DNA of 64,000 bases from the NCBI GenBank assembly GCA_030145015.1, contig JAQYWI010000002.1, forward strand, positions 22,506 through 86,505, given 5' to 3'. Positions 30,819 to 55,828 of this stretch are shown here, piece by piece (position 1 is the stretch's first letter; every line of letters starts with the position of its first letter). The DNA is from Desulfobacterales bacterium. GTDB lineage: Bacteria; Desulfobacterota; Desulfobacteria; Desulfobacterales; JAHEIW01. The position numbers and the translations under genes were made by a program. The notes under the pieces were generated by a model. That model was not told the DNA's origin, ran no database searches, and saw nothing but the letters and a program-made list of their open reading frames with translations.

Positions 30819-30820
30819 AA

Positions 30821-31504: not shown

Positions 31505-31625
31505 AATCCGAAATTCGAATATCGAAATCCGAATGTTCAAAACGTTTTGAATTTTGATCATTTGATATTCGGATTTGTTTCGGCCAATTTTATAAAATCA
31601 GGCGATATTCGTGCTTCGATTTTTT
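31505..31625. repeat. Foldback repeat, family A copy 2
   Basis: Starts at the stop of the GT2 gene with AATCCGAAATTCGAATATCG and folds back on TTTGATATTCGGATTTG. The right half matches 1490-1545 (TTTGTTTCGGCCAATTTTAT, AATCAGGCG). It separates the glycosyltransferase genes from the radical SAM genes. Confidence 0.7.
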
Positions 31626-31648
31626 AAAGCCGTTATAGGAGGATCTTT

Positions 31649-32650: not shown

Positions 32651-32654
32651 ATTC

Positions 32655-33662: not shown

Positions 33663-33805
33663 AACCCATCTCAAAAAGGCGTCTAAGTGCCCAGGGCTGC
33701 GTTGTCCCGCGAATTGAAATACTCACGTACTGCGTGTACGCTCCGTTTTCAATTCACAGGACGCCTTGCCCTGAACTCTGATCCACCTTTTTGAGATGGG
33801 TTTTA
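33660..33805. mobile_element. Inverted-repeat element, family F (MITE-like), perfect 20-bp ends
   Basis: 146 bp bounded by TAAAACCCATCTCAAAAAGG and its exact inverse (33786-33805). The interior folds through AATTGAAATACTCACGTAC and GTACGCTCCGTTTTCAATT. In the inverse sense its core parallels those at 36616-36684 and 44776-44842 (GCTGCGTTG, CTCACGTAC, CGCCTTGCCCT). There is no transposase, so it would need one in trans. The left end supplies the stop of the radical SAM gene. Confidence 0.75.
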
Positions 33806-33828
33806 GTGTCAGGGTTCAAATAAAGGCG

Positions 33829-33925
33829 GATAGGCTGGGAAGCTGGAAGGCTTGAAAGGGCGAATGCTTCCAAGCTTTCTGGCGTCCCAGCCTTCAAGCT
33901 ATGAGCTATCAGCTACGAGCTATTT
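33829..33925. repeat. Foldback repeat, family H
   Basis: The left arm GGCTGGGAAGCTGGAAGGCT and the right arm GCTTCCAAGCTTTCTGGCGT with CCCAGCC are imperfect inverses. A direct array AGCTATGAGCTATCAGCTAC follows. It fills part of the 396-base gap before the PA2779-like gene; the remainder (33926-34040) is AT-rich with nothing recognised. Confidence 0.6.
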
Positions 33926-34058
33926 TCAGTTCATTTTGGATCCAGTTTTCTCGAATTCAGCTTTATATCCCATCAATTCGTTCAAGTGACAAAAATTGAC
34001 AATTATTGATTTTAAAGATACGATAAACACAATGAAAATACTTTAGAGGAGGTAAAGG

Positions 34059-34466
34059 ATGAAGTTAATTCGGCAACGATCCAAATCGGCAAGTGTGTTT
34101 CTCATTACCTTGATGGTTTTGTTAACCATACCGTATCAATCGGTCCTGGCGGCTATGATCGAAACAGGTGCCACTCTGGATATCACCGTGCAGGGTCAAG
34201 AAGCCCGCAACACAATCAAGAGCATCCTTGCTCGCGAAGACGCTCAGGCGGTTTTAAGGGCTCAGGGAATCGATCCTCTGGAGGCCGGGGCACGTGTTGA
34301 TAGCCTGACCGATGCTGAAGCCGCACGAATTGCCGATCAAATCGAAGAACTTCCGGCCGGCGGCAACTTCCTTATCGGCGTCCTCGTCGTTGTTGGTATC
34401 ATTGTCGTTATTTTAGCAATTACAGATGCAATGGGATATACCGACGTCTTCACATTTATTAAATAA
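34059..34466 (+). CDS. PA2779 family membrane protein
   Basis: 135 residues. It has an N-terminal signal or anchor (VFLITLMVLLTIPYQSVLA) and a C-terminal helix (FLIGVLVVVGIIVVILAITD). In between is a helical periplasmic part with LAREDAQAVLRAQGIDPLEA and VDSLTDAEAARIADQIEELP, the signature of the PA2779 family of Pseudomonas and relatives. The function is unknown, but it is always paired with the peptidase that follows here, which overlaps it by 41 bases. ATG at 34059 with AGAGGAGG upstream. Confidence 0.88.
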   Translation: MKLIRQRSKSASVFLITLMVLLTIPYQSVLAAMIETGATLDITVQGQEARNTIKSILAREDAQAVLRAQGIDPLEAGARVDSLTDAEAARIADQIEELPAGGNFLIGVLVVVGIIVVILAITDAMGYTDVFTFIK

Positions 34467-35445
34467 AGCCAAAAACAAGGGGCACGGCAACCACCATAGC
34501 CTACTGTGCATTCTTATTTTTGGGATAATTGGCGCACTGTTGGTTTTTACCGGATGCACTACGGTATCCACAAAAAAATGGTATCAGGATGCCGGGGGCA
34601 TACCGCCCAAACAAGAATTGAAAGCGGTGCCTTTTTATCCCCAGAAAGAATACCAGTGCGGACCGGCATCATTGGCAATGGCCCTTGCCTGGAGCGGCCT
34701 TCAAATCGATCCGGATAACCTCACTCCGCAGGTATACACGCCTTCCCTCAAGGGCAGCCTGCCGCCGGCTATGGTCGCCGCAACCCGCCGCCATGGAAGG
34801 GTTGCCTATCCCATCAGCGGAGCAAATGCGCTGCTCAAAGAAATTGCGGGCGGGCATCCGGTAATCGTTCTGCAAAATCTGGGATTTTCCTGGATTCCGC
34901 TCTGGCATTATGCGGTCGTAATCGGTTATGACCTTGACGAAGGTGTGGTCACCCTGCACTCCGGAACAACAAACCAGAAAAAAATGTCCCTGAGGGCTTT
35001 TGAAAATACCTGGGCCAGAAGTGATTATTGGGGGTTGGCCATTTTCCCGCCTTACCGCTTGCCCGCTTCAGCAGACGAATTTACGTATGTCGCGGCAATT
35101 GTTGGTTTGGAAAAAGCCCGCCAATGGGACGCGGCAGCGCAAGGGTATCAAACGGCACTCCATCGCTGGCCCAAGAACCTTTCCGCTCATATTGGCCTAA
35201 GCAACAGCCTTTATGCAAAGGGAGAATTAAAAATTGCAGAAAAGGTATTGCGAAAGACGACGGATCTTTTCCCGAATGAAGGTGTGGCTTTTAACAATCT
35301 GGCCCAGGTACTGTGGGAGCAGGGGAAAAAACAGGAGGCCATAAAAACAGCCCTCCAGGCCGTAACGCTTGGCGGGCCGTTTGTTGAAAAATATCAGAAA
35401 ACCCTGGATGAAATCCGGTCGAATGAACCCTATATAAGTGACTAA
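34426..35445 (+). CDS. PA2778 family C39-like cysteine peptidase lipoprotein with TPR repeats
   Basis: 339 residues. The lipobox VFTGC gives lipidation at C44. The C39-like papain-fold domain (about 65-215) has the oxyanion Gln and nucleophile Q77-C78 (EYQCGPASLAMAL) and H161 (LWHYAVVIGYD). The C-terminal ~120 residues form about three TPR-like repeats (AAQGYQTALHRWPKNLSAH, AEKVLRKTTDLFPNEGVAF, EAIKTALQAV). The expected place is the periplasmic face of a membrane; the substrate is unknown. The start at ATG 34426 lies inside the PA2779-like gene; a CTG at 34503 would give a more usual signal length. Confidence 0.86.
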   Translation: MQWDIPTSSHLLNKAKNKGHGNHHSLLCILIFGIIGALLVFTGCTTVSTKKWYQDAGGIPPKQELKAVPFYPQKEYQCGPASLAMALAWSGLQIDPDNLTPQVYTPSLKGSLPPAMVAATRRHGRVAYPISGANALLKEIAGGHPVIVLQNLGFSWIPLWHYAVVIGYDLDEGVVTLHSGTTNQKKMSLRAFENTWARSDYWGLAIFPPYRLPASADEFTYVAAIVGLEKARQWDAAAQGYQTALHRWPKNLSAHIGLSNSLYAKGELKIAEKVLRKTTDLFPNEGVAFNNLAQVLWEQGKKQEAIKTALQAVTLGGPFVEKYQKTLDEIRSNEPYISD

Positions 35446-35612
35446 AGTTAAGGTGTCGCTGCGCTCCATCTTTTAATAAAATGATCGTTCGACCCAGTCG
35501 TTCGACCCAGTCGTTCGACCCAGAGGCTCTCGACGGGAGGCTCTTGACAGGCAGAATTCCTTAACTTTAGGCATTTTAGATCACTTTAGTCACTTTAGTT
35601 CACTTGTATTTT
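35440..35612. repeat. Foldback repeat, family E with inner GTTCGACCCA tandem
   Basis: The outer arms ACTAAAGTTAAGG and CCTTAACTTTAGGCATTTTA mirror each other, and the right side continues with GATCACTTTAGTCACTTTAG. The centre has three TCGTTCGACCCAG units and then GGCTCTCGACGGGAGGCTCT. The inverse of the same centre lies in 42708-42790. The left arm begins in the last codons of the peptidase gene. Confidence 0.72.
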
Positions 35613-35619
35613 TTTACTT

Positions 35620-36441
35620 CTAATCCTTTTTCTCGAACAACCCCTTAACCTTATCGGTAACACCTTCCGCTTCTTTGCCGGCGCCCTCGACAATGCCCCC
35701 AGCTCCCTTTGCGGCTTTTTCGATATCGGCAATGCTGCCGACACCCAGTTTTTTAAGCTGATCATTTAAAGCTCCCATCACCATGGGTGACTGAATTTTG
35801 TCATACAGAGCCGCAAAAATTTCCTTGGCTATTTCGGCCGGAGAAGCACCGCCCTTCTTCTTGCCGAGGTCTTTGAGATGAATGTCGGGAAGATCGGCCT
35901 TGATTTCCTGGTCACCGAGCACACCGCCAGGTATTTCCACATCCAGGTTCACCTTGCCGTTTTTTAGGATAAAATCGTTAATGATCAACTTCTTTCCCGG
36001 ACCCTCTTTTGCGGGCTCCTTTTTGGAAGACTTACCTTTGGGCACATTTTTTTGCACGTTAGCCAGGAGCGCTTTAAAATTATCTGATTTGCCCCGCTTT
36101 TCGTAAGTGATCTCAGGGCCGACCACCTCGACTTTATTAATAATAATTGGATCTTTTGTTATCGAACCCTCATCAACATCCACGTAGATAGAGCCCACCT
36201 TCATGGCACTCGCAGATTTGAAGCCTTTCGGATTTCCAAGGAAAAACTTTTTAAGCTTGGCTTCGGCCGAAAAAATGGAAATTCCGACATCATCCACCCG
36301 TAATTCTGTGCCCGTAATTTTGGGCCCGTAAGTGTTGACCGCCATTTTAACGATCGGGCCCAACTTTGAAATACCGACAACAACAACGACAATGAGGAGG
36401 ACGACAATCGCACCGAGGCCGATAAATATCCATTTTTTCAT
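35620..36441 (-). CDS. AsmA-like single-helix envelope protein
   Basis: 273 residues. An N-terminal helix (about 4-25) anchors it in the inner membrane; the rest is periplasmic. The sequence NTYGPKITGTELRVDDVGIS then SAEAKLKKFFLGNPKGFKS is characteristic of AsmA/DUF748-type beta-rich proteins, which in larger form move lipid or affect outer-membrane assembly. This one is short. The C-terminal ~40 residues are Gly/Lys/Glu-rich, with amphipathic repeats of the AGGIVEGAGKEAEGVTDKV kind. ATG at 36441; it stands alone on this strand. Confidence 0.72.
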   Translation of the reverse strand: MKKWIFIGLGAIVVLLIVVVVVGISKLGPIVKMAVNTYGPKITGTELRVDDVGISIFSAEAKLKKFFLGNPKGFKSASAMKVGSIYVDVDEGSITKDPIIINKVEVVGPEITYEKRGKSDNFKALLANVQKNVPKGKSSKKEPAKEGPGKKLIINDFILKNGKVNLDVEIPGGVLGDQEIKADLPDIHLKDLGKKKGGASPAEIAKEIFAALYDKIQSPMVMGALNDQLKKLGVGSIADIEKAAKGAGGIVEGAGKEAEGVTDKVKGLFEKKD

Positions 36442-36504
36442 AATTTTTTCTCCTTTTCAATTTGGGGAAGGCCTTTGCTTTTGATGGAAGATGGTTCCCA
36501 TATA

Positions 36505-36703
36505 TAGAAGCTATCTCAAAAATAGTAGCTCACGTCCAAGAGCCCCGCTAACGCGGGATTACATGTCTAATCTAAACAGATTAATGTATGCATCAAGGCG
36601 TGAGCCGACGCAAAAGCGCAGCATACATATAAGTATGTGAGCATTTTAAGGAGGTTCACAACGAAGCTATTGGGCGTTAGATGCATTTTTGGGATAGCTT
36701 CTA
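36505..36703. mobile_element. Inverted-repeat element, family F (MITE-like)
   Basis: 199 bp. Left end TAGAAGCTATCTCAAAAAT, right end ATTTTTGGGATAGCTTCTA (one mismatch). The core has GCGCAGCATACAT and GTATGTGAGCATTTT, which form a hairpin, then AAGGAGG and CAACGAAGCTATTGGGCG; this core is shared with 44776-44842. It lies in the 357-base gap between two minus-strand genes. No ORF is supported. Confidence 0.75.
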
Positions 36704-36798
36704 TTTATTACCTGGGAAGTTAGGGACTAGATCGGGAAGTGTCAATATGAGAAGAGAAGAAAAACAATCTAACGATTATGATTGAAAAATCGGCATAT

Positions 36799-39456
36799 TC
36801 AAGGATTGGCGGCCTTAACATATGTGTCCGCATTGGAAGAAGATTGTGTCAGCAGAGGGCGATAGGTTTTCCCTTCCACCTGTTTCAGATAACCCAGTAA
36901 CTGCTGCTCCAGCTCGGCAGCCAGCCTGGGTTTTTCTTCTATCAGGTTTTTTTTCTCCATGGGATCTTGCTTCAGGTTAAATAATTGCAAAAGGTCCAGC
37001 TCAGCGAAATATATGAGTTTCCACTGCCAGTTTCGAAATAGAAAATAGCGGCGCTTAAAGGAGGCCCGGCCGGCAACATCTCTTTTAAGATAACGGTCGC
37101 GTTGGTTATTTAAAATAAGCGGGACAAGAGAAATTCCCATGCGGGGATCATCATAGGGCGGATCGGTCGAATAGCCTGCCAGATCGGCAATGGTGGGAAC
37201 CATATCCGCAGCAATCACGGGAACATCTTCAAAACGTCTTTGAATTCCATGTACAAAAAGAATTGCCGGAATTCGAATTTCTTCCTCATAAAGGGTATGC
37301 CCGTGAAGGCTGGCGCCGTGTTCCCAGAATTGTTCTCCGTGGTCCGAAGTAAACAATATGACGGTTTTTTCGTAAATATGATTTGCTTTCAGCCAGTTGA
37401 CAAAACGTTCAAGGGCACTGTCCAGATAAGAAAGGTTATTGTCGTAGAGATCTCTGGGGGTGTCGCCAAAATCTTTCCCGCCGGGTTTTTTCCAGAGATC
37501 ATTGTGCACATCCATCAAATGCAAAAAACAAAGAAACCGCTCACCCGCCCTGATTTTCGAGATGGCTTCACGCGCCGAATGAAATACTTCATCTGCGGTG
37601 GCGGTACGCCGGTCGCTTACCGCCCGGGGTATGCTTAACTCGAGGACCGAATTTTCAGGCGCAAATATGGATCGCGGGCCAAAGCCCCTCATGACCATAT
37701 AATGCCGGATACCTTCTGCCTGTGCAATTTTAAGAAAGAGATTTTCCCGGTATAAATCCGGTCCATACAGATCGAAGCGACTTCTACCGGCGACCAGAAA
37801 TGGAAATGCCGCAAAGGAGCCGCCCCCCTGACTGTAGGCCCGGCGAAACGAAACAGCCTCCGCCTGGGCCCATTCGTCCAGAAACGGCGTCAGGTTGCGC
37901 CGGTAGCCGGCGGAATGGAAGGCATCGCCTCTGAGCGCATCAACAACGATCACCATCAGATTGAAATCTTCAGGAAGTAAAGATGGATGGGTCTTTTCCA
38001 GTTTCCAGGGTTGGGGCCAGGGATGCGCTTGCTGATTAAAATCCGGATTTTGCCCCAGGCGGACCCAGGAATCCAGTTTTAATAAGCCCGCAAGCTCTCT
38101 GGCATAGGCTGCTTCCACCCGGGTGAGGTCGCTGAACTGCAGAAGCGTTGTCTTTGCCGCCGGATATTTATTCAGAATTCCGAAGGGGAAGAATCCAAGA
38201 AAAAAAACAAAGGCCATCAAAGCCCAGTGCCTTCCAGATCCGGGCGATCGGGCCTTTTCAGCGAAAATCACCTCTTCAAAAACCAGAACCAGCGCTCCGG
38301 CGACCACTAATGATACGATTTTCAAAAGGATGCTTTTCAGGTAAGAAAAGGCGGTAAACCACGGATTAAATAAATCTCCATATAGCAATAAATAAGCCAC
38401 AAGTCCGCACAGCAACAGCGTTGATAATATCAAAAATACCCATAAAGCCCGGCGATAGGGCTTTGAGGTAATCAGCCAGAACAGCGGGTAGATAAATAAG
38501 ACCCCTAAGGAAACACAAATAAGTCCCACCGGGCTCAATTTTCGATCTTGAGGCAAATAGTTTAAAATCCGGCTGTAAGTAATTGACAAAAGAGCACCGC
38601 TGACTGCACACAGCACAAAAGCCAGCGAAAAGACAGCGGGCCTGAGGCCGAGCGTGTTGACCTGCCATTCAACCGCATATGTCAGGGCGGAAAGTGTAAT
38701 GGCCGTGTAAGCCCCTGAGAGCAGCAAAAACGGCAAAAAAAATGATAGCCCTTTCAGGGCGGTTTTTTGATCCAATTTAGCCTGGAGAAAAGCCGTTAGC
38801 GCAATTATGGCCAGCGTAGCAATACCAAACCACAGTCCCGTTGTACCGGCAAAAACCGCGGGAACGAGTTTCCGCAGGACAATCTCAACACCTGAATTCA
38901 GGTGCATATATTCTTTTAGTCGATACCAGGAAGGATCCAGCTGGGCAACGACGACATTTAAAAAAAAGACCAGCACCAGAAACAACAGTGTGTGAGACTC
39001 TCTCTGCCGCAAACGGCCGGAGTCGTCACTGTTGTTAAACTGTTGATACCAGAGGACCGCATAACCCTGCATGAGAATTGCAGCCAGCAAAAGAAACGTT
39101 AGCGCGGATATTAAATTGCGCCAGCCATTGAAAACGGCCGGAGCCAAAAGCCCAACGGACAAAAACTGGATACCAACCGGTATTTTAAGCGCACCCGTAT
39201 AATGGTCGTGATTGAATCGGACCCAGACGTGTTGTAATCCGCCAACAAGGATCAAATAAACCCCGGCCAGACCGATAAAAATAAAAATGTGTATTCCAAG
39301 CCAGGCAAATCCAGGACTTTCACCGGCAGAAATTTCCTGACCCAGCTGGCTGTGGATTGCCGTAAAAAGATAAAGGAGCACAAAGACCAGACAGGCCCCG
39401 GTAAAATGCAGCCACGGCAGGGTTTCATATAGCCTTTTTAAAAGTGGTGAGGTCAT
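36799..39456 (-). CDS. Membrane-anchored sulfatase/phosphoethanolamine-transferase-fold hydrolase
   Basis: 885 residues. The first ~480 hold about 12 transmembrane helices, and the rest is a periplasmic alkaline-phosphatase-superfamily domain. Metal-site motifs are visible: VIVVDALRGDAFHSAGY (first Asp), FLHLMDVHNDLW and FTSDHGEQFWEHGASLHGH. The nucleophile region AYSQGGGSFAAFPFLVAGRS has Ser where sulfatases use Cys or Ser and transferases Thr. Relatives include YejM/LtaS-like proteins, but the N-terminal part is larger than theirs. Substrate unknown; a role in lipid or glycan modification fits the topology. ATG at 39456. Confidence 0.85.
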   Translation of the reverse strand: MTSPLLKRLYETLPWLHFTGACLVFVLLYLFTAIHSQLGQEISAGESPGFAWLGIHIFIFIGLAGVYLILVGGLQHVWVRFNHDHYTGALKIPVGIQFLSVGLLAPAVFNGWRNLISALTFLLLAAILMQGYAVLWYQQFNNSDDSGRLRQRESHTLLFLVLVFFLNVVVAQLDPSWYRLKEYMHLNSGVEIVLRKLVPAVFAGTTGLWFGIATLAIIALTAFLQAKLDQKTALKGLSFFLPFLLLSGAYTAITLSALTYAVEWQVNTLGLRPAVFSLAFVLCAVSGALLSITYSRILNYLPQDRKLSPVGLICVSLGVLFIYPLFWLITSKPYRRALWVFLILSTLLLCGLVAYLLLYGDLFNPWFTAFSYLKSILLKIVSLVVAGALVLVFEEVIFAEKARSPGSGRHWALMAFVFFLGFFPFGILNKYPAAKTTLLQFSDLTRVEAAYARELAGLLKLDSWVRLGQNPDFNQQAHPWPQPWKLEKTHPSLLPEDFNLMVIVVDALRGDAFHSAGYRRNLTPFLDEWAQAEAVSFRRAYSQGGGSFAAFPFLVAGRSRFDLYGPDLYRENLFLKIAQAEGIRHYMVMRGFGPRSIFAPENSVLELSIPRAVSDRRTATADEVFHSAREAISKIRAGERFLCFLHLMDVHNDLWKKPGGKDFGDTPRDLYDNNLSYLDSALERFVNWLKANHIYEKTVILFTSDHGEQFWEHGASLHGHTLYEEEIRIPAILFVHGIQRRFEDVPVIAADMVPTIADLAGYSTDPPYDDPRMGISLVPLILNNQRDRYLKRDVAGRASFKRRYFLFRNWQWKLIYFAELDLLQLFNLKQDPMEKKNLIEEKPRLAAELEQQLLGYLKQVEGKTYRPLLTQSSSNADTYVKAANP

Positions 39457-45499: not shown

Positions 45500-46651
45500 T
45501 TAGCGCCGGGAAGCCAGAATAATTTCAATTCGGCGGTTCTGATGCCGGCCCTTTTCAGTTTGGTTGGATGCCACTGGACTATAGAAGCTGTGGCCGCTTG
45601 CCGTAAACCTTTGGGGCTCGATACCGGCCTTTTCTGTGAGATAGCGCACCACGGCCGCAGATCGAGCTGCCGACAATTCCCAGTTGGTTGGATATTTTTC
45701 CCTCAAGTCCGGTCCGATCGGAACGTTATCCGTATGTCCTTCAACGATGATGTTTTGGTTATTTTGCTTGAGGCTTTCGGCAAGCGTTGACAGCAATTGC
45801 TTACCTTTCTCATTGACCTTTGCTCTTCCGGAATTAAATAGAATCCTATCGACTAAGGTAACTTTTAATTTGCCGGCCAGATTTTCCAACTTCACTTGCT
45901 GGGCCTCTATCTGTTCTTTCAGGTCGGTTTCAATCTGGCGTTTGGTTTTATCTCGCTGAGCGATGGCATTTTGCAGTTCTTTTATCCTTTTTTCCCGGAA
46001 CTCTATTTCCGACTGCCGGTCATGCAGGCTGTTTTCTATTTTTAGCCGGACGGTATCCAGTTCAGTGATAATCTTCATTTGCTCGTTTATCGTTTGCTCC
46101 TGGATGACGATCTGTTCTTTCAAATCGATTAAATTAGTTTCAACATACTGTTTCTGGTTACCTAACTTTGAAATGGTCATTTCTTGCTCTTTTATCTTTT
46201 TTTCGCGACTCTCCAGCTGTGCCAGAAGGTTGATTTCCAACATACGCCTGGTTTCATCCAGCTTTGCAACGGCATCTTCCAGTTCTTTAATCTTTTGCTC
46301 GCGTGTCACGATCTGCGATTGCATATCGCTTTCTGATTTGCGCTTGGCCTCATCAACCTGGTGGATAACGTCTTCCCTTTGCGCTAAAGATTGGGAAAGC
46401 ATTTGCTGTTTTTTCTCCAACCCTTGATAGCGCGCATGAAGCTCGCTAGTATCCTGCTGGCACTTAGTCCAGTTTTGTTCCAATTCCCCCAGCTTTTGCG
46501 CTAATTCTTCGACTTTCTTGTCTTTTTGTTCAAGTTTCGCCTGAGTATCGGTAAGCCTTGCTTCTAATTCCTCATATTTTTCTTTGGAAACACATGCTGA
46601 AACCAGAAGACAAGTCAAACATAAGCTGAAAAAAAATATTTGTTTGCGCAT
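45500..46651 (-). CDS. OmpA-domain lipoprotein with long coiled coil (TagQ position)
   Basis: 383 residues. Lipobox LLVSAC gives lipidation at C20. Residues about 25-265 are an almost unbroken coiled coil (EKYEELEARLTDTQAKLEQK and many heptads with I-x-E-x-E-x-x-I patterns). Residues about 268-383 are an OmpA-like peptidoglycan-binding domain (ILFNSGRAKVNEKGKQLL, GHTDNVPIGPDLREKYPTNW, NRRIEIIL). It could reach from the outer membrane to the cell wall. Last gene of a six-gene operon; its place matches that of the TagQ lipoprotein in Pseudomonas. ATG at 46651 with GAGGGAG. Confidence 0.88.
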   Translation of the reverse strand: MRKQIFFFSLCLTCLLVSACVSKEKYEELEARLTDTQAKLEQKDKKVEELAQKLGELEQNWTKCQQDTSELHARYQGLEKKQQMLSQSLAQREDVIHQVDEAKRKSESDMQSQIVTREQKIKELEDAVAKLDETRRMLEINLLAQLESREKKIKEQEMTISKLGNQKQYVETNLIDLKEQIVIQEQTINEQMKIITELDTVRLKIENSLHDRQSEIEFREKRIKELQNAIAQRDKTKRQIETDLKEQIEAQQVKLENLAGKLKVTLVDRILFNSGRAKVNEKGKQLLSTLAESLKQNNQNIIVEGHTDNVPIGPDLREKYPTNWELSAARSAAVVRYLTEKAGIEPQRFTASGHSFYSPVASNQTEKGRHQNRRIEIILASRR

Positions 46652-46687
46652 AATAATTCTCCCTCACTGTATGTTTGCATACGGATT

Positions 46688-48538
46688 CTACGGCAAAATA
46701 AGATCTGATTGAATTTCCTGCTGGCTGACGTTTCCTGCCTTTCGTTTGTAAAGGGCCACATGGCTTCTGAATAGATCCAGTCTGTTTTTCAAACTCCGGC
46801 TGAAAACTTTCTCGAGGCCCAATTCTTGTGAAACAAAGTTGATTTGACTTGCAAAAAGTTCTTCAGGGTATCGCTGGGTTTCTCTGATTCGATTGAGATA
46901 GAGTTTTACGAAATGATCCATGGCGGAATCGAGCAGGCGAATTGTCTCTTTTGCCTTAGCAATTCCGCTCTCCAATGAATCAGGAATGGACTGAGAATCC
47001 GTCTCGTCTTTTATCTTCTCAAGTTTGTTCAGCTCATTGAAGGCGATTTTTCGCCGGATAGCATATTTTTGCAAAGATTCAGCCGTAAAAAGAGCGCTGT
47101 GGATAATACCCTTCACCGTTTCAGCTTCCTGCTCTTTAAGTAAAATACTTTTTTGTTTGAGTACGTCTCGCAGAAAAAGTAAATTCCTTTTTTCGGTTTC
47201 ATCAGCGGACATCGCCACAAATCGCTCAATTTCGGCAATGGGATCCTTGCTTTGATCTATTTCGATCTTTGGCGCTGAAAATTTTGCGGGAGCCTGGCCG
47301 GAATTTTGCTGAACACCCAGATTGGCCCACTCCTGATCGAGCCGTTCCTTGCGGTCCTGGGGCGTTAGGATCCCGGAAAGTGCGACACGAAAGCCAACAT
47401 CACTGCTGCGAAAGGCACCATCACCGAGGAATAAAGGTTGTTCTTCGCGCCTTCCGGGCATGGTCTCAGCCAGACTCTTGCGAAAACTGCCGCCTTTGAT
47501 GATAAACCCGCCGGCAGCGCCATGCAGCCGAAATCCTATTGAAAAATGAAATGGATCCAACACCATCTCGGCGGCATTGCCCGCGGTGTCGAAGAGTCCT
47601 AACGGATTAGCGCACTTTGAACCGATCCTGGCTAATTTTTGCTGGGGTTTGGCTGCACCCTGATCGGTAAAAACAGCGAAATCTTTATACGGCCTATCAT
47701 TTAATGGGAAAAACTCCTCATCGTTTAATTGCGACTCGGTCACCATCTGGCCGCCACGGGCCGCATACTCCCACTCGGCTTCAGTAGGCAAACGCAGGTA
47801 CCCAAAACGGTCATTGGAAAACTGGGGCAGGTGTTCCGGGGCATTTTTAATAAGCCACTCGGTGTATTTTCGGGTAAATTCCACGGCCTCAAACCAAGAA
47901 ATATCCGTCTTGGGGCGGGCATCATCCGCGAAAAACCAGGAACCGGGTCCAAAACAAACATCATTCATCACCGCTTTCCACTGGAAATTTGTAACCTCGT
48001 ATTTGCCGATAAAATAGTAAAATGCCCTGATATTCGTGTCGCCGGGTTGCGGGCAACGGCCATCACCGTTTACACTCGCATTTTCAAGCTTCACGCGCCA
48101 GGCAGCAGGCAAATCCTCCAGTGTAAAGGGTCCGGAAACCGCACTCAAACGCTTACCCTCCATGAAGCTATTTTTAAAACGCCCGCAGTCTTTGCAGCCC
48201 ATATCAAAGGGTAAATCTGCAAAATATCCCCCGGCAGGCACACAGACACGCCGCAGAATCATTTCCCCCTGGCAAGGCATCGGAAGTGAGAAATCGCTTT
48301 GGGAAGGATTGGGGTTTACTGCCGCTACCACCGGACCCGGCAAAGCCAAGACACGTTGCTCAGATGGGCAGTGTTGAGCCAGAAGCAGTGGGACGTGTAT
48401 CACTAAACCGAACAAAACACATAGCCAAGTAGAGGGAATCAGAAATTGTTTTGATAATCGAATGTAAAAATTGGGCGCTTTGTAATTTTGCCGATTCAAC
48501 CCAGATACAGGTTGCTTTGTTCCAGGCCTAAACCTCAC
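46688..48538 (-). CDS. Formylglycine-generating-enzyme-fold protein without catalytic cysteines (TagR-like)
   Basis: 616 residues. Signal peptide or anchor at about 36-55, FGE-sulfatase (SUMF1) fold at about 90-390 (GKYEVTNFQWKAVMND, LRLPTEAEWEYAARGG, PLGLFDTAGNAAEMVLDP, GGFIIKGGSF, SDVGFRVALSG), then a helical C-terminal ~220 residues. The Cys pair that makes FGE active should follow GGS; here the sequence is GGSFRKSLAETMPG, so it is likely non-catalytic, as proposed for TagR. The GTG start at 48538 has GGAGG seven bases ahead and overlaps the permease stop by 11 bases. Confidence 0.85.
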   Translation of the reverse strand: MRFRPGTKQPVSGLNRQNYKAPNFYIRLSKQFLIPSTWLCVLFGLVIHVPLLLAQHCPSEQRVLALPGPVVAAVNPNPSQSDFSLPMPCQGEMILRRVCVPAGGYFADLPFDMGCKDCGRFKNSFMEGKRLSAVSGPFTLEDLPAAWRVKLENASVNGDGRCPQPGDTNIRAFYYFIGKYEVTNFQWKAVMNDVCFGPGSWFFADDARPKTDISWFEAVEFTRKYTEWLIKNAPEHLPQFSNDRFGYLRLPTEAEWEYAARGGQMVTESQLNDEEFFPLNDRPYKDFAVFTDQGAAKPQQKLARIGSKCANPLGLFDTAGNAAEMVLDPFHFSIGFRLHGAAGGFIIKGGSFRKSLAETMPGRREEQPLFLGDGAFRSSDVGFRVALSGILTPQDRKERLDQEWANLGVQQNSGQAPAKFSAPKIEIDQSKDPIAEIERFVAMSADETEKRNLLFLRDVLKQKSILLKEQEAETVKGIIHSALFTAESLQKYAIRRKIAFNELNKLEKIKDETDSQSIPDSLESGIAKAKETIRLLDSAMDHFVKLYLNRIRETQRYPEELFASQINFVSQELGLEKVFSRSLKNRLDLFRSHVALYKRKAGNVSQQEIQSDLILP

Positions 48539-49745
48539 GGATAACCTCCGATGGTTCGATGCGTGATACCCGAAAAGCCCCGTAAGCTGATGCCAGCATG
48601 GCGAAACCCAGGGTCAAAACAAAGCCGGTCAACATATGCTCGAAGGATAGGCGACATATATATTCGCTCGCAGAGAGATATTCGGAAAAAAGTCCGTTGA
48701 TCATTTTTTCCGCTATTTTGTAAAGGAAAACAGCCATCACCGTACCAAGAACGCTGGTGGCCATGGATTGGACGATCGGGTACCAAATGATCGTTTCGGT
48801 TGAAAAGCCGATCAAGCTTGAAATACCCAGATATCGGCTTTTACGGTTCACATTGGCCAATACATTGCTTACCATAGAGGCAAAATAACCCAACACTGCC
48901 ACGACGGCGATGAGGCTGAAAATAAGGTTAAACGAACGGTCCAGGCGTTTGACCGTTTCAATATCCTCCGCCTGGGTATAAACCTCCAGGCCCTGATCCA
49001 TCAACATGCCGCGTAATTTGCCCACATCATAAATTGAGCGGGCATAAAGCCGAAAACTGGGATAAACTCTCGGCCGGGTCGGCCGGGCACTGCCTGGCCA
49101 TCCGAATGTCTCAGAGCGGTGACCGTCACGGTAGTCTTCGGTTGCCTCCAGAAGCTCCAAACGTACAAAGGCAGCTTCTCGGGTAAAGGCGTCCAGAGGC
49201 AAGACGGCGACAATTTTCAATGTGGCCGCAACTTGTTGCTTTACCCCGCTTACAGACCGTCCCACCTGCCCGGTGATATGCTGGCCCTCTTTGACCTTAA
49301 GTTTTCGCGCGGCCGGCTCCGATAACACGACCGTATTTTTCTCGGCCACGATGCGCCCATATTGCTCCAGCAGGGGATCACCTTCGGCGGTAGGAATGAG
49401 GGACACGACAACCGTGCGGGGATTTGCCGAATTTTTGTTATACAGAATCATACTGGCCGCAATGGAGCGCGTTTGTGGAATAACAAAAGCCACATCCGGG
49501 CGATCACGCATAGCAGAAAACCAGTCGGCGCCATAGCGACCGCTTCCCACCGCAGAAATTTCACGGTTCCGCGGATCTTGAATCAGGCGATCGGACAGGG
49601 TGTTAATAATCCCGCTCTTCACCCCGAATAACACCAGCAAAGGTGCCAGAACGGCTGCCAAGCCCATCACCGCACACGCAGATAACAAGCGCTCATGCAG
49701 GTAATCGCGCAGCGCCAGATGAATAACCGTTTTAAACTTGTTCAT
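48528..49745 (-). CDS. ABC transporter permease, FtsX/MacB-like (TagS-like)
   Basis: 405 residues. One N-terminal helix (about 20-45), a large extracytoplasmic domain (about 50-260), then three C-terminal helices in the FtsX domain (LIAVVAVLGYFASMVSNVLA, MATSVLGTVMAVFLYKIAEK, MLTGFVLTLGFAMLASAYGA) and the closing FRVSRIEPSEVIREV. Such permeases transmit force rather than transport; TagS is of this type. It lies directly next to its ATPase (15 bases). ATG at 49745. Confidence 0.9.
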   Translation of the reverse strand: MNKFKTVIHLALRDYLHERLLSACAVMGLAAVLAPLLVLFGVKSGIINTLSDRLIQDPRNREISAVGSGRYGADWFSAMRDRPDVAFVIPQTRSIAASMILYNKNSANPRTVVVSLIPTAEGDPLLEQYGRIVAEKNTVVLSEPAARKLKVKEGQHITGQVGRSVSGVKQQVAATLKIVAVLPLDAFTREAAFVRLELLEATEDYRDGHRSETFGWPGSARPTRPRVYPSFRLYARSIYDVGKLRGMLMDQGLEVYTQAEDIETVKRLDRSFNLIFSLIAVVAVLGYFASMVSNVLANVNRKSRYLGISSLIGFSTETIIWYPIVQSMATSVLGTVMAVFLYKIAEKMINGLFSEYLSASEYICRLSFEHMLTGFVLTLGFAMLASAYGAFRVSRIEPSEVIREV

Positions 49746-49760
49746 CGTTCAATCTGTCGT

Positions 49761-50555
49761 CTACCCAAAAATCCTAGCGTGCACCTTGCCCCGCTTCGGG
49801 TCCTGTTTGAAACTGAATTCTACGCGACGGAAACCGCGCTCCCCCAATTTTCCCCAATCATGCGTGGCCATAACCAGGGTAACACCATATTCGTCGGTCA
49901 GTTTGTTGAATAGACTCATGATTTCTTCAGCGTTAATTGGATCCAGTGAAGCGGTCGGCTCATCGGCTATTACCACTGACGGCTGATGCGCCATTCCCCT
50001 GGCAATGGCCACCCGCTGACGTTCCCCCACCGATAATTGACCGGGAAGTTTGTTCAGATGTCGTTCGATATGCAGGCGTTGGGCTATGGATTCTACGGCC
50101 TCTTCAATCGGCAAACCAAGTCCCCGCCGGCTGATTCCAATGTTCTCCCGGACCGATAGAAACGGAAAGAGACCACCTGTTTGCAGAACATATCCGATAT
50201 GCAGCATGCGGGTTTGAGCCAGGCGGCCCAGCCGCCTGTGCTGCCAAGCGTCCATCACATTCAGCGCTTCCCCATTTTGGGGAAAAAAGTCAAATCGTCC
50301 GGCTTCATCAGGTCGCAGGATCATCGCCAGCAGGTCGAGCAAGGTACTTTTGCCGCATCCGCTGACACCCACCAGGGCAATCTTCTCTCCCCGACGAATA
50401 ATAAGTTCGGGGACGGTCAATGTAAAACCCTGCTCCCCGGGCCAGCTTTTGGCTACCCCCATAAGGTGGAAGACTTCTTCGGCCTTTGAGAGCTTGCCTC
50501 CAGGCACCGATGACGCGCTCTCTTTTTCGGGTGACAGCTTCTTGCGATCGGCCAC
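49761..50555 (-). CDS. ABC transporter ATP-binding protein, LolD/MacB-like (TagT-like)
   Basis: 264 residues. Walker A GVSGCGKST (63-71), Q-loop at LQTGGLFPFLSVREN, signature LSVGERQRVAIARG, Walker B VVIADEPTASLD and switch His in VMATHDWG. It has an N-terminal extension of about 28 residues and a basic C-terminus. Partner of the FtsX-like permease. The GTG start at 50555 has GGGAGG eight bases upstream. Confidence 0.93.
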   Translation of the reverse strand: MADRKKLSPEKESASSVPGGKLSKAEEVFHLMGVAKSWPGEQGFTLTVPELIIRRGEKIALVGVSGCGKSTLLDLLAMILRPDEAGRFDFFPQNGEALNVMDAWQHRRLGRLAQTRMLHIGYVLQTGGLFPFLSVRENIGISRRGLGLPIEEAVESIAQRLHIERHLNKLPGQLSVGERQRVAIARGMAHQPSVVIADEPTASLDPINAEEIMSLFNKLTDEYGVTLVMATHDWGKLGERGFRRVEFSFKQDPKRGKVHARIFG

Positions 50556-50572
50556 GATGGAGACCTCCCGAT

Positions 50573-52576
50573 TTAGGGCATAAGACTCAAAGGGATTCGA
50601 TAGACGGCATCTCCCGGTTCGGTTGCCCCGAAAGTTACCCAGTTGGCCACATCGTCATGGATTTGAGTATACCTTCTGATCTTCGATTTTAGATTATTGA
50701 CGATGGCTTGCTGCTCCCCGACGCTCAATCTGTACCAATCCTCTTCGGTCAACCGCATGATATTGCTGCGGTAAGGTAAATCATCCAGGAATTCCGCAAG
50801 GACGCCCAGCTCACCCAGGTTTTGGTCCGGTTTTCGGCTAAATTGCAGGGGATCACGTGACATTTGTGCAACCGCTGCGAGAATGCTCTGGAAGAAATCC
50901 TTGTCCCGCGTTCGTTTGGTCCGCTGGGCTTGATCCAGAACGACCTTGAGGCGCTGGCTGAGGTCGCTGAGTTGATTTTTAGTTAGCAGAACGCTCACCT
51001 TGAAGGTCGGCGTGTCGGGGCGCGCTAAATCCATGTCTGAAACCCAGGCTTTAACAACCTTTGGTGCTTGAACACCAGCGCGACGGCCTAAAAATTCAAG
51101 CTGCATGGCATATCCCAAAATAGCCGCCTTGCGCACCGCCTCCTGCACCACATCCCCGGTTCGGTCTTTGGGTACCTCGGGCAATGTCAATCGCTCACCC
51201 ACACTGGTTGCCCGCACCAGTTCTACCATCTGGGTGGCAACACCCTCAACCACGCTTCCAAAACCACGCACGCCGGTTGCAGGCTGAGCGGCGTCAATGG
51301 GGACATACAGATCCCCGACCATCGGATCGGAATGTCCGGTCAGAGCCCTGAATTGGGTTTCCGCATAAGGGTGGTTGTTTACCTTTTTGCCTGCAGGTGT
51401 TTTGAGATGTAAAGCAAAAATCTTTACACCCTTGGCCGCGGCCATATCGGCTATCTCAGCTTCGTTCATAGCGGTTGAGGAAAAGGGATCGTCGTTTCGA
51501 ATAGCGCCTGCATCCGTAATGAGAAAGGCGAGCCGCGATACATACGGTGACCAGTTCAGTTTTTCAAGGGCCGTCTTAAGGCCGGCAAAGGCGTCTTCGT
51601 TGAAAGAATGCGTGGAAATCTTGGCTTCCTGTGCTTGGGCCAGGGCAAGTTCAAATTGTTGGCGCTCTCTTCCATCCCGCAAATCAGACAACACGCTGAC
51701 CACATATTCAACGCCCGGTGTTTTCTTAGTGCTGTTGCGAAAGGCAACCAATCCAAATGCCACCTTATCGGATAAGCCGGCTTTTTCGATGGCGTCATAA
51801 ATCTTGCGCACAGCCTCGCGGGTCCTATCGATATATGGTTTCATGGAAATCGTGGTATCAATGACGAATATAATTGCTGTTTTTAATTCCATATCTTCCG
51901 GGAATCGGCCTGAGCCGGGATCGATGGAAGCGACTTGCAAAAATTTAACGCCTTCAAAGAGCTCAAGCGCTTGAAAAATCGGCATGAGGTAAAACCGCTT
52001 TCTCGAGACGGCTTCCTCTGGTGGTTCGGCAGCCAATACTGGGAATTGCGCGGACGGGGAGATGCTTCCCGATTGAATCGTAGCAAACCGGGATGCAAGT
52101 TGAGCTGCCTGCCCACCCGGAGATGGTGACCCGGCAACCTTCTGAAGCGATTTCAGATCTTTGAAAAATAAGGCCGGCTGACGGCCGGTTCTTTCCGAAA
52201 AAACCAGCGTCAATGCTTGATTCCAATCAGAAGTTTTCGATCCTCTAATCCATCCGACTGCCCCTTCGGTGCTCGAAAGCCCGACTTCCAACCATGGCTC
52301 ACCGCCGACCGAAGCACGCTGGTAAACATAAAATACCGTAAACGGCTTGACCCACTTTTCCAGAACTTTCGCAGAGTTTCCCGCCAGCGCATAAAGCTTA
52401 GAGCCCGGATGGGTGATGACCTTTTGATATAATGTGCGTTTACCGGGTATGAGCAACGGCTTGCTTTGCTTAGCTGCATAGATCTCTTGCCCCATAAGCC
52501 CCAAACAGATAAAAAATGTCACCAACATAACAATGAACCCGGCCCTGCTCATGGATTTCATGTTTTTGGATTGCAT
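50573..52576 (-). CDS. Exported von Willebrand factor A protein resembling the periplasmic half of PpkA
   Basis: 667 residues. Signal peptide 1-34 (GFIVMLVTFFICLGL, cut near IYAA). An SH3-like segment at about 48-118 (LYALAGNSAKVLEKWVKPFT, WLEVGL, VGWIRGS). The vWA domain starts at about 234, with a MIDAS-like D240-T-T-I-S244 (VIDTTISMKPYIDRTREAV). A long helical C-terminal part follows. SH3-like plus vWA in this order is what I recall of the extracytoplasmic region of the Ser/Thr kinase PpkA; here there is no kinase domain at all. ATG at 52576 with GGAGG. Confidence 0.82.
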   Translation of the reverse strand: MQSKNMKSMSRAGFIVMLVTFFICLGLMGQEIYAAKQSKPLLIPGKRTLYQKVITHPGSKLYALAGNSAKVLEKWVKPFTVFYVYQRASVGGEPWLEVGLSSTEGAVGWIRGSKTSDWNQALTLVFSERTGRQPALFFKDLKSLQKVAGSPSPGGQAAQLASRFATIQSGSISPSAQFPVLAAEPPEEAVSRKRFYLMPIFQALELFEGVKFLQVASIDPGSGRFPEDMELKTAIIFVIDTTISMKPYIDRTREAVRKIYDAIEKAGLSDKVAFGLVAFRNSTKKTPGVEYVVSVLSDLRDGRERQQFELALAQAQEAKISTHSFNEDAFAGLKTALEKLNWSPYVSRLAFLITDAGAIRNDDPFSSTAMNEAEIADMAAAKGVKIFALHLKTPAGKKVNNHPYAETQFRALTGHSDPMVGDLYVPIDAAQPATGVRGFGSVVEGVATQMVELVRATSVGERLTLPEVPKDRTGDVVQEAVRKAAILGYAMQLEFLGRRAGVQAPKVVKAWVSDMDLARPDTPTFKVSVLLTKNQLSDLSQRLKVVLDQAQRTKRTRDKDFFQSILAAVAQMSRDPLQFSRKPDQNLGELGVLAEFLDDLPYRSNIMRLTEEDWYRLSVGEQQAIVNNLKSKIRRYTQIHDDVANWVTFGATEPGDAVYRIPLSLMP

Positions 52577-52600
52577 TGCCTGTCCTCCGTTTTTATAAAG

Positions 52601-53197
52601 CTATTGCCAATTCGTTAATACCTCACGCGCCTCCCGAGACCCCTGTGCCGCCTCTTTTTGGACCCATTGCCGCAGATCTGAGAGGTGATTTTGCGCCTCC
52701 GACTGTCCGCCAGACAGGGCTAGCTGGTACCACTCATATGCGGCCGCAGGATCTTTGATAATCGTTCCGCTATCATCCGTAGAGGTGGGATCAAAATAGC
52801 GCGCCACGATTAACGCGGCCTCTGCATGTCCGGCTTCAGCAGCGTACTCCAGCAGAATAAACGCCGCATCGGCCCGTTCCGGTTTTTGCGGGAATGATTT
52901 CGCTAGCGCTACGGCATCTTCCGGATCGATTCCCTTTCGCATCGCCTCTCGCACCTGTTCAAGTAAAGGCGCATCAGGTGAATAGGATGGTGGGGCAGGC
53001 TTGGGCGCCTCTTCCTTGGGAGGCAAATTTGCCATCCGAGGCAGTTTGGTTGGCTCAGCCGTTTCCTTGGTCGGAACGGCTTGTCTTGATACTCGCCAGG
53101 CGAAGTAGCCACCGACAGCTACAGTGATGACGATAGCAACCGTGATTGGGATCCACCACCGTGTTCGCGGCTCTTCATCGTCAAAATTATATTCCAC
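52601..53197 (-). CDS. Single-helix membrane protein with Sel1-like repeats
   Basis: 198 residues. A short acidic N-terminus (EYNFDDEEP), one helix (about 15-33, WIPITVAIVITVAVGGYFAW), a Pro-rich linker (about 45-75), then Sel1/TPR-like repeats (AEAGHAEAALIVARYF, PAAAYEWYQLALSGGQSEAQ, EAAQGSREAREVL). First gene of the Tag-like operon, 24 bases before the vWA gene. The GTG start at 53197 has AAAGGAGAG upstream. It could take the place of the missing PpkA N-terminal part as the inner-membrane anchor. Confidence 0.78.
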   Translation of the reverse strand: MEYNFDDEEPRTRWWIPITVAIVITVAVGGYFAWRVSRQAVPTKETAEPTKLPRMANLPPKEEAPKPAPPSYSPDAPLLEQVREAMRKGIDPEDAVALAKSFPQKPERADAAFILLEYAAEAGHAEAALIVARYFDPTSTDDSGTIIKDPAAAYEWYQLALSGGQSEAQNHLSDLRQWVQKEAAQGSREAREVLTNWQ

Positions 53198-53794: not shown

Positions 53795-55828
53795 ATGGCG
53801 GAACAGATAGGGTTCAGACGCAATATGGGCCTGTTTATGGCGGTAATGATCGGCATTGGCGCCACGATGGGGCCGGGTATTTTTGCCCTGCCGGGCGAGC
53901 TGGCGCATATGATCGGTCCGCTGGGTGTTCTCGTCTATTTGGCGATGGGTTTTTTAACCCTGTTTACCGCCTTAAATTACAGCGAACTCAGTGCAGCCAT
54001 ACCGTTAGCCGGGGGCGGATATTCCTTTACCCACAGAACACTCAACAGACCCGTGGCGTTTTTTACCGGCTGGTTCTTCTGGATCGGCAACACCCTCGCC
54101 TGTTCGATGTACGCCCTTATCTTTGCCCTGACGATCCGCGCCTACTTTTTACCGGACGCCAGCATTGCCCTTCTCACCCTGCTCACCACCGTCGTATTCA
54201 CGGCCGTCAACCTCATGGGAATGAAGGAAGCCATTATCGTTATTACCGTAATGAATCTGGTGGAACTGGCGGTCCTGGTCGGCGTTGCCGGGCTCGGTTT
54301 CACAGATATTGAGCCGCTTAATCTGGAGCCTTTAGCGCCAATGGGATGGGGCCCCTTCATTCCGGCGATGGCCCTGATCTATATCTCCTATGTCGGGTTC
54401 GAACTGATTTCGAATGCGGCTGAAGAGATCATTCAACCGGGTAAAAACATTCCGCGAGCTATTTTGATCACATTGGGCGTAAGTACGGCAATTTATGTTT
54501 TTGTGGTCGGCGTAATGATGGGCACCGTCAATTATACCGAGCTCGCCCAGAGCGACATTCCGTTCATCTACGTTGCCGAGCGGCTTTTCGGCGGCTGGGG
54601 ACGCTGGGCCGGCGTCATCGCGACAATAATGGCGAGTCTTTCCGCATTCAGTGTGACATTGGGCGCCAGCGCCCGCATTTTATACGCATTGGGGCGCGAT
54701 AAACATTTTCCCTACTTTTTCGCCAAGTTGCATCCGAAATTCCAAACGCCCCATATTGCGCTTTTTATTTGTGCCCTGATTGTGATTATCTTCAGCTCCT
54801 CCGGCATCGTCAAATTTGTGGCTTCTTTGAGTGATTTCGGCTACCTGATGGGACTCGGAATCATCAATTATGCCGTGATTCCATTGCACAAAAAAATGCC
54901 CAATTTGCGACGTCCATTTCAAACCATGTTTTTCCCCTGGATACCTATTCTGGGCGTTATTACAACCTGGATCTTCGTTCCGGCATTAGAATTCAGAAGT
55001 TTTGTTCTGGGAGGGATACTGACCCTGGTCGGAAGCGCGATATATCTTTTCAATTCCGATAACCGCGCTGAAGTTTCCAAATTGACAAAATTTTATGTAA
55101 AATCATTGAAATTGTTTATATATAAATTAAGGAGAATGCGTATGCGAGTACTTATCATAAGTGGCGGAAAACAGGGCCAAAATATCGCTGATCGACTCCT
55201 GGCAAAAGATGAGTATCAGATGATGTTTCGCTCGGCGGAACATCAGGTAACCTTCATTGAAGAAGACGAGAAGCTATGTAAGGAATTGGAACAACGCTAC
55301 AATTGTCCAATTTACCAGGGAGACGGCACCAAGAAGGAATTACTGGGACAGGTAGGCCTTGATAATATTGATGTTGTCATCGCTGCCTTTCAAGATGACG
55401 GCCGCAATGTAATTGCGGCCCTCCAGGCCAGACAGTTAAAACTTGAAAAAGTCATCGCCATTGTCCAAAATTCCGAATACACACAGCTCCTTGAGCAGAA
55501 CAGCGTAGTGGTGGTTAACGCACCCTGGGCGACAGCAGCTATGGTCGAAAATATTCTCGACAACCCCGTTTTAGCGCAACTTTTCGAATTTGGAATCGGA
55601 GCGGCGAGTCTTTTAGAAGTAAGCGTGCCTGAAAATGCGAAGGTAAATGGCAATCTCATCCGCGATATTGAAATACCAAAAGGGTGCTTGATTGCCGCAA
55701 TCATCAGGGATAAGCAATTTGTGGTACCGCGCGGCGTTACGAGCATCGAGGTTGATGATCGCGTAATTTTTATCGGACCCGCCTCGGCCATAAAAAAAGC
55801 ATTCGATATATTTATGCTCAAAAAATAA
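53795..55828 (+). CDS. APC-family amino acid permease fused to a TrkA (RCK_N/RCK_C) regulatory half
   Basis: 677 residues. Residues 1-430 are an amino acid-polyamine-organocation permease with about 12 helices (GIGATMGPGIFALPGELAHM, then YSFTHRTLNRPVAFFTG). Residues about 450-600 are a TrkA-N/RCK_N Rossmann domain (VLIISGGKQGQNIADRL, FIEEDEKLCKELEQRY, YQGDGTKKELL) and about 600-677 an RCK_C domain (DIEIPKGCLIAAIIRDKQFV). It could be nucleotide-gated. An internal GGAG (55131-55134) with an in-frame ATG at 55142 marks the join, so the second half may also be made alone. The native operon partner seems to have been joined in frame. Confidence 0.9.
   Translation: MAEQIGFRRNMGLFMAVMIGIGATMGPGIFALPGELAHMIGPLGVLVYLAMGFLTLFTALNYSELSAAIPLAGGGYSFTHRTLNRPVAFFTGWFFWIGNTLACSMYALIFALTIRAYFLPDASIALLTLLTTVVFTAVNLMGMKEAIIVITVMNLVELAVLVGVAGLGFTDIEPLNLEPLAPMGWGPFIPAMALIYISYVGFELISNAAEEIIQPGKNIPRAILITLGVSTAIYVFVVGVMMGTVNYTELAQSDIPFIYVAERLFGGWGRWAGVIATIMASLSAFSVTLGASARILYALGRDKHFPYFFAKLHPKFQTPHIALFICALIVIIFSSSGIVKFVASLSDFGYLMGLGIINYAVIPLHKKMPNLRRPFQTMFFPWIPILGVITTWIFVPALEFRSFVLGGILTLVGSAIYLFNSDNRAEVSKLTKFYVKSLKLFIYKLRRMRMRVLIISGGKQGQNIADRLLAKDEYQMMFRSAEHQVTFIEEDEKLCKELEQRYNCPIYQGDGTKKELLGQVGLDNIDVVIAAFQDDGRNVIAALQARQLKLEKVIAIVQNSEYTQLLEQNSVVVVNAPWATAAMVENILDNPVLAQLFEFGIGAASLLEVSVPENAKVNGNLIRDIEIPKGCLIAAIIRDKQFVVPRGVTSIEVDDRVIFIGPASAIKKAFDIFMLKK
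55131..55144 (+). promoter_or_regulatory. Internal ribosome site at the domain join of the APC-TrkA fusion
   Basis: AAGGAG ending at 55134, then ATG codons at 55136 and 55142, both in frame (M448 and M450). The spacing of seven bases to the second ATG is ideal. Translation from it would give a free 228-residue TrkA-like protein starting M-R-V-L-I-I-S. Confidence 0.55.

Follow-up and report, generated by a model that had tools for sequence, protein, structure and literature searches.

Introduction

In Pseudomonas aeruginosa, TagQ and PpkA are required for assembly of the type VI secretion system (T6SS) following outer membrane damage, a response for which an unknown signalling molecule has been invoked (PMC11881912), and tagS and tagT mutants still form TssK foci, only less often, which points to a modulatory role (PMC6657622). 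A related gene set was reported by Campbell et al. in 2013 in host-associated Deltaproteobacteria, where srfB and srfC occur with tagQ (whose product was likened to the Rickettsia 17 kDa antigen), ppkA, ligA, and mostly tagR, tagS and tagT, and where just one of the bacteria had T6SS machinery; in that study, environmental Deltaproteobacteria were without the srfB and srfC clusters of orthologous groups, and neighbourhood similarity to environmental genomes was low (PMC3608642). In Xenorhabdus, T6SS control genes lie beside srfABC (PMC6950479). Here we analyze a six-gene operon at positions 45500-53197 of a 64,000-nucleotide stretch of DNA from a Desulfobacterales bacterium (assembly GCA_030145015.1, contig JAQYWI010000002.1, positions 22,506 to 86,505 of the forward strand; the whole stretch is called the window). 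The operon may well represent a stand-alone branch of a trans-envelope module, without kinase and without Srf proteins, that works outward as an ATP-driven mechanotransmission device. Clusters that join Srf to TagQRST/PpkA without T6SS were already published in 2013, and what is new here is the branch without Srf genes (the solo form), the missing head of its membrane anchor, and the lack of Srf in the genomes examined. The open-access literature searched yielded no account of the solo form or of heads that can be exchanged, most subscription papers being outside the search.

Results

The Operon Is Related to the TagRST and PpkA vWA Set of a T6SS Cluster

The operon consists of six open reading frames (ORFs), all on the minus strand, with spacings of 15-36 bases and one overlap of 11 bases, and both the existence of the six genes and the layout given in the original prediction, which had been made from the DNA letters alone, are confirmed. 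In order of transcription, the genes encode a headless anchor of Sel1 type (52601..53197; Pfam Sel1 2.4e-4, below the cut-off, together with a transmembrane scan and homology to a kinase tail), an exported vWA protein (50573..52576; vWA match below the Pfam cut-off, with residues like those of a metal ion-dependent adhesion site, MIDAS), a TagT/LolD-like ATP-binding cassette (ABC) ATPase (49761..50555; Pfam ABC_tran 3e-26), a TagS-like permease of LolC/E-MacB type with a large periplasmic domain (48528..49745; Pfam FtsX 8e-12), an exported TagR-like protein with the fold of formylglycine-generating enzyme (FGE) and an extra C-terminal region (46688..48538; Pfam FGE-sulfatase 1.4e-26), and a coiled-coil lipoprotein with a C-terminal OmpA peptidoglycan-binding domain (45500..46651; lipobox LVSAC, Pfam OmpA 8e-19).

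On plasmid pTM1 of Tistrella mobilis (L063), the module lies inside a T6SS cluster with the order tssH-tagH-tssJ-tssK-icmH-tssM-tagF-PP2C-kinase-vWA-ABC-permease-FGE-small protein-vgrG. The window proteins are homologous to the Tistrella set over most of each length (33% identity for the vWA protein, 48% for the ABC ATPase, 35% for the permease, and 31% for the FGE-fold protein), and the periplasmic vWA protein, the ABC pair, and the FGE-fold protein stand in identical order; therefore, the likeness to TagR, TagS, TagT, and the vWA part of PpkA that had been proposed for this operon holds. The two systems also share a membrane protein with a transmembrane segment and a Sel1-type tail. In contrast to the T6SS pathway, no kinase family was found in the six module proteins by a Pfam scan, as had been predicted, and no T6SS structural gene, Fha, or PppA was found among the 26 window proteins scanned (a subset of the ORFs), where matches to TssR_VWA and TssL, all under the cut-off, fall on the vWA and OmpA domains. 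The window also has the OmpA coiled-coil lipoprotein instead of a glycine-zipper TagQ-like lipoprotein, and the T6SS-linked form is not its closest clade.

The free vWA protein had been taken as a special trait of the window, a view that does not stand, because the Tistrella T6SS cluster likewise encodes its kinase and its vWA protein in two genes, and a separate vWA protein is thus not peculiar to a stand-alone system. The databank label PpkA is carried by many of the 120 vWA homologues listed, although the query is kinase-free; most of those listed are of about the same length as the query, and nine longer homologues from the Tistrella search gave no kinase domain by Pfam and hence no fused PpkA.

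The set that recurs jointly in relatives comprises five core genes, i.e. those for the Sel1 anchor, the vWA protein, the ABC ATPase, the LolCE-type permease, and the FGE-fold protein. The OmpA lipoprotein gene was found in only 3 of 11 loci, namely the window and its two close relatives L004 and L074, in both of which it is cut at runs of N. The lipoprotein is accordingly a facultative member, and the idea that it replaces TagQ is not borne out; no lipoprotein gene is a constant neighbour in the solo clade.

Genomic Contexts of the Module

SrfABC, which the original prediction did not mention, is the setting in which the module was most often seen. No srfA, srfB, or srfC was found in the window by phmmer. 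The order srfA-srfB-srfC-membrane protein-vWA-ABC-permease-FGE occurs in Leclercia, Klebsiella, and Lelliottia, and Cereibacter, Gluconobacter, and Hyphomicrobiales UR115 have a similar one, with a weak SrfA match in the first two. A tblastn search of plasmids with the vWA protein retrieved 125 records in which a relative spans at least 80% of the query. Klebsiella accounts for 114 of them, and in 113 of the 125 the identity to the Klebsiella query is at least 99%; one such record was checked for Srf genes. Genome contigs contributed 51 loci. Among the Desulfovibrio-type ones, those whose upstream sequence is long enough are mostly of the Srf form, and L003-L016, L046, and L050 have the genes of the window without Srf. 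The titles of these solo loci name Desulfobacterales, Desulfosarcina, Desulfobacteraceae, Desulfatiglandales, "Deltaproteobacteria," and one symbiont of an Olavius worm. All five core genes are joined in the window and in nine solo loci; the others are interrupted by contig ends or runs of N, with the exception of L007. Beyond the five core genes, no neighbour is common to more than three independent solo loci.

Four metagenome-assembled genomes (MAGs) deposited as single-record "chromosomes" (with loci L003, L004, L046, L050, and L071-L074) are pieces joined by runs of 100 N, some of which could instead be masked sequence, and distances within such records therefore carry no weight. L003 seems to lack the FGE gene, and the vWA gene of G003 and G004 seems to be split, but both were rejected as biological features because the breaks fall at such runs.

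Compared with the Srf-linked set of Desulfovibrio piger, the window proteins show 46.9% identity for vWA, 47% for ABC, 44% for the permease, and 37.8% for FGE. The Srf-linked module of Enterobacteriaceae, some alphaproteobacteria, and Desulfovibrio thus shares the five genes with the window at the higher identity and stands nearest in the tree, and it differs in having srfA-srfB-srfC and an anchor head of at least 136 residues, both of which the window lacks.

The Anchor Differs from Its Relatives in the Cytosolic Head

The anchor of the window has about 14 cytosolic residues, a single transmembrane segment (residues 15-33), and a periplasmic Sel1-type tail with a YFDP motif, and an in-frame stop lies five codons upstream of its start. 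In the Tistrella kinase, the kinase domain (residues 50-297, Pfam 2e-34) is followed by a transmembrane segment (residues 321-339) and by a weak Sel1 match (residues 437-455, E 0.049), and the Srf-form anchors consist of a cytosolic head, a transmembrane segment, and a Sel1-type tail. When the longest ORFs were compared, the number of residues before the transmembrane segment had a median of 14 in the 16 solo anchors, the two longest stretches (66 and 95 residues) possibly reflecting start-codon choice, versus a median of 177.5 and a minimum of 136 in 48 other anchors, which include some without Srf linkage. The topology assumed for the anchor agrees with that of PpkA of Acidovorax citrulli, in which an N-terminal kinase is followed by a transmembrane segment and, as indicated by PhoA fusion, a periplasmic C terminus (PMC12607579).

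To compare the tails, hidden Markov models (HMMs) were built with the transmembrane segment removed and run against 6353 sequences. The Tistrella kinase was matched at 5.5e-6 by the HMM from 16 solo tails, at 3.2e-10 by that from the 48 other anchor tails, and at 4.5e-11 by the combined one, and hhalign of the anchor tail with the kinase tail gave a probability of 95-96%. A control search of nine genomes or plasmid records gave 45.7 bits for the kinase and 25.6 for the best other non-anchor match. By eye, a juxtamembrane LPRMANLP / LPRIAKLP is apparently shared, but the HMM score in that region of the kinase is not significant. These data suggest that the anchor, which the original prediction had left without an explanation, is a kinase-less counterpart of the transmembrane segment and tail of a T6SS membrane kinase. 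The head is a kinase in the T6SS form sampled here, about 180 residues in the Srf form, and about 14 residues in the form of the window. Among five solo genomes searched with the anchor profile, headless anchors were the sole matches above 25.3 bits, and thus no kinase with such a tail was seen there.

Two further arrangements of anchors and partners were observed. A second headless anchor (1e-106 to that of the window) is present at L104:7972-8568 (G002), where no vWA gene was found in 17 kb and where, by eye, the gene adjoins oligopeptide-type ABC genes. In Azospirillum (L065:10955-13814), the module adjoins, also by eye, kinase-like and PP2C-phosphatase-like ORFs on the opposite strand, possibly a further variant of head or partner.

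The Solo Clade, without SrfB or SrfC in the Genomes Examined, Groups with Srf-linked Modules

SrfB was found in none of 15 solo-clade genomes and SrfC in none of 10, compared with 7 of 7 Desulfovibrio genomes for SrfB, including five without srf beside the vWA gene first examined, and 4 of 4 for SrfC. The loci of those five genomes (L021, L027, L040, L047, and L051) had been considered as extra solo cases and were not counted as such, since all five genomes carry SrfB, in one of them beside a second vWA copy. Of the 395 genomes surveyed in the phylum, 25 carry the vWA protein at full length, a further 14 of the 39 matching genomes being excluded from the module carriers for having a vWA domain match only. 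SrfB scored above the cut-off in 17 genomes (four matches below it were left uncounted), all of them among the 25 carriers (Fisher 3.9e-24, kinship ignored). Eight vWA carriers are without SrfB: the solo-clade genome G002, six genomes from a divergent clade, and G356. Srf thus appears to be missing from the solo genomes examined, and not merely placed elsewhere in them.

A vWA tree was calculated from 85 rows and 654 columns, with L082 (a duplicate of L004) and L022 left out and eight hand-picked database proteins of unknown context added. The solo rows cluster in a single 15-member group (SH-like approximate likelihood ratio test 99), which adjoins a group with many Desulfovibrio Srf rows; further Srf-linked rows are found in several other parts, and the T6SS row lies elsewhere. 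A constraint that joins solo and T6SS rows lowers the log-likelihood by 219.6 units (approximately unbiased test, p 7.8e-5). The permease tree likewise unites the solo rows (11 rows, support 100); in this tree, which contains long branches, the same constraint lowers the log-likelihood by 23.2 units (p 0.041). Both trees sample a single T6SS locus and are rooted at the midpoint, and within these bounds the solo clade appears to group with Srf-linked modules and not with the T6SS module. As the nearest relatives are srfABC-linked and the T6SS grouping is rejected, firmly on vWA and weakly on the permease, a derivation from the T6SS pathway, one of the two origins first proposed, is unlikely; the other, that the module came before that pathway, is left unsupported. 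The simplest reading of the trees would be a loss of srfABC and of the head in the solo branch, with use by the T6SS as a separate association.

A divergent vWA clade (L065, L067-L070, L100, and L101) gave no anchor or Srf match upstream where sequence exists. Two Srf-form genomes hold a second, divergent copy of the vWA module (L095 and L097), with no recognisable anchor; the genes upstream encode small exported proteins and a larger one of about 430 residues.

Properties of the vWA Protein, the ABC Pair, and the FGE-fold Protein

The vWA protein has an I-domain fold, its Foldseek listings mainly covering residues 228-495, and the residues of a predicted metal site, a MIDAS-like D240-x-T-x-S244 and D355, of which D240, S244, and D355 are invariant in 76 of 76 aligned members. 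Many residues are invariant across 37 aligned members with 66-92% identity to the window. The family is large, with 1153 homologues at E <=1e-3 among 7996 candidates scored; a sequence search of solved structures found no relative with the protein (one chain, E 0.08) and none with its profile.

The ATPase has an intact Walker A (GVSGCGKST), signature (LSVGER), and Walker B (VVIADEP). The permease model (predicted local distance difference test score 88.1) matched LolE (1.1e-18), MacB (7e-15), and YtrF (2.8e-14) in Foldseek, with LolE and LolC as the top matches. From its modelled LolCE/MacB/FtsX fold and intact ATPase motifs, the ABC pair is predicted to belong to type VII, a class that includes LolCDE, MacAB, YtrEF, and FtsEX, the last being described as a signal transmitter. 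The window shares the permease fold and the ATPase type with these systems and differs in its partners, which are vWA and FGE-fold proteins and not LolA, MacA, or EnvC.

A true formylglycine-generating enzyme has a cysteine pair in the C-terminal segment. The FGE-fold protein of the window shares the FGE domain with that enzyme and with FGE-fold binding proteins such as PorK/GldK and the Treponema denticola variable protein, but it has no Cys in the GGS..GFR segment, and a PGRREE motif is common after GGS instead (among 60 of 71 FGE rows listed).

Other Searches and Neighbouring Genes

A defence system was considered and rejected, since PADLOC gave domain-level matches only (MotB-like ZorB, generic ATPases, and coiled coils), and a search of PHROGs found the FGE domain and one weak match of the Sel1 protein and nothing more. 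The divergently transcribed neighbour (53795-55828) encodes an amino-acid permease fused to TrkA-N and TrkA-C, and the region 27153-39456 encodes a glycosyltransferase, two radical SAM proteins (one with SPASM), a C39-type peptidase with TPR, and a large sulfatase.

Discussion

The core of the module would consist of the anchor tail, the vWA protein, the type VII ABC pair, and the FGE-fold protein. We infer that the anchor tail holds the periplasmic vWA protein at the inner membrane, that the FGE-fold protein, without the catalytic cysteines of the true enzyme, binds a ligand at the outer membrane or cell wall, assisted in the window by the OmpA lipoprotein, and that the LolCE-like pair uses ATP hydrolysis to move or reset the periplasmic assembly. 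Because no cytosolic output domain is present, the solo form most likely works outward; it would respond to envelope damage or tension and act on the envelope itself, with no phosphorylation signalling inward.

Several observations weigh against this reading. The five genes are not inseparable, since L007 (2179-6151) pairs a vWA gene with an adjoining FGE gene, with neither the ABC and permease genes nor an anchor found there, although the same genome also holds a complete module (L006). The kinase-tail homology comes from one T6SS lineage (Tistrella, three near-identical sequences; a search of the protein database with the kinase tail gave two Tistrella-like sequences only), and it lies in the Sel1-type segment, a common fold. 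The comparison with P. aeruginosa is indirect, through Tistrella, databank PpkA labels, and the literature, and the absence of Srf holds for the set of solo genomes and not for each MAG, given the N-run joins and with completeness not given. Finally, the operon had been described as standing without T6SS, which is true of the window but not of all its relatives, since a VipB match was found in 5 of 10 solo-clade genomes, four of them strong and one weak and partial.

The VipB matches bear on the best of the alternatives, in which the solo module would signal inward through a cytosolic partner encoded elsewhere, such as a kinase, the T6SS, or a transcription factor, docking on the ABC ATPase or on the stub of the anchor. 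The sister systems are tied to cytosolic machinery (kinase or Srf), and VipB is mildly enriched with the module (46 of 395 genomes in all, 8 of 25 carriers versus 38 of 370 others; p 0.004, or 0.015 without the weakest match, kinship ignored). Nevertheless, the other half of the solo genomes tested gave no VipB match, no neighbour that could be such a partner recurs in more than three independent solo loci, and no kinase with an anchor-type tail was seen in the five solo genomes, so that inward signalling appears rather unlikely, though deserving of attention.

An export machine for lipoproteins or lipids resembling LolCDE/YbbAP, in which the vWA and FGE-fold proteins act as receivers in the periplasm, would account for the LolE and LolC matches of the permease and for the lipoprotein gene added in the window. 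This is distinctly improbable, since the same ABC pair occurs in a T6SS cluster, the tagS and tagT phenotype in P. aeruginosa is modulatory, and the solo clade has no constant lipoprotein neighbour. That the operon is what decay has left of a module once linked to Srf or the T6SS, as the lack of the head and partner genes of both relatives and the reduced L007 copy might suggest, is hardly credible in view of the intact frames and motifs in the window, the 15-row clade with titles naming several groups, and the many invariant residues of the aligned members.

More tentatively, the module could be one case of a general bacterial device for envelope damage or tension in which the head domain is exchanged, being joined to SrfABC, replaced by a kinase on recruitment by the T6SS, or absent in the solo branch, where the device would repair or brace the envelope. 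How damage is sensed by TagQRST/PpkA and what the ABC pair does are unsettled questions in T6SS biology, and a natural kinase-less version isolates the envelope core, which can therefore be purified and tested alone. The finding also offers a handle on srfABC, an operon of many bacteria whose function has been called unclear (PMC3608642), as it travels with the envelope module in all 17 SrfB-bearing genomes among the 395; the cytosolic head of the anchor adjoining the Srf genes is a candidate docking site for Srf proteins. If the exchange of heads is true, the "tit-for-tat" sensor of the T6SS would be a borrowed part.

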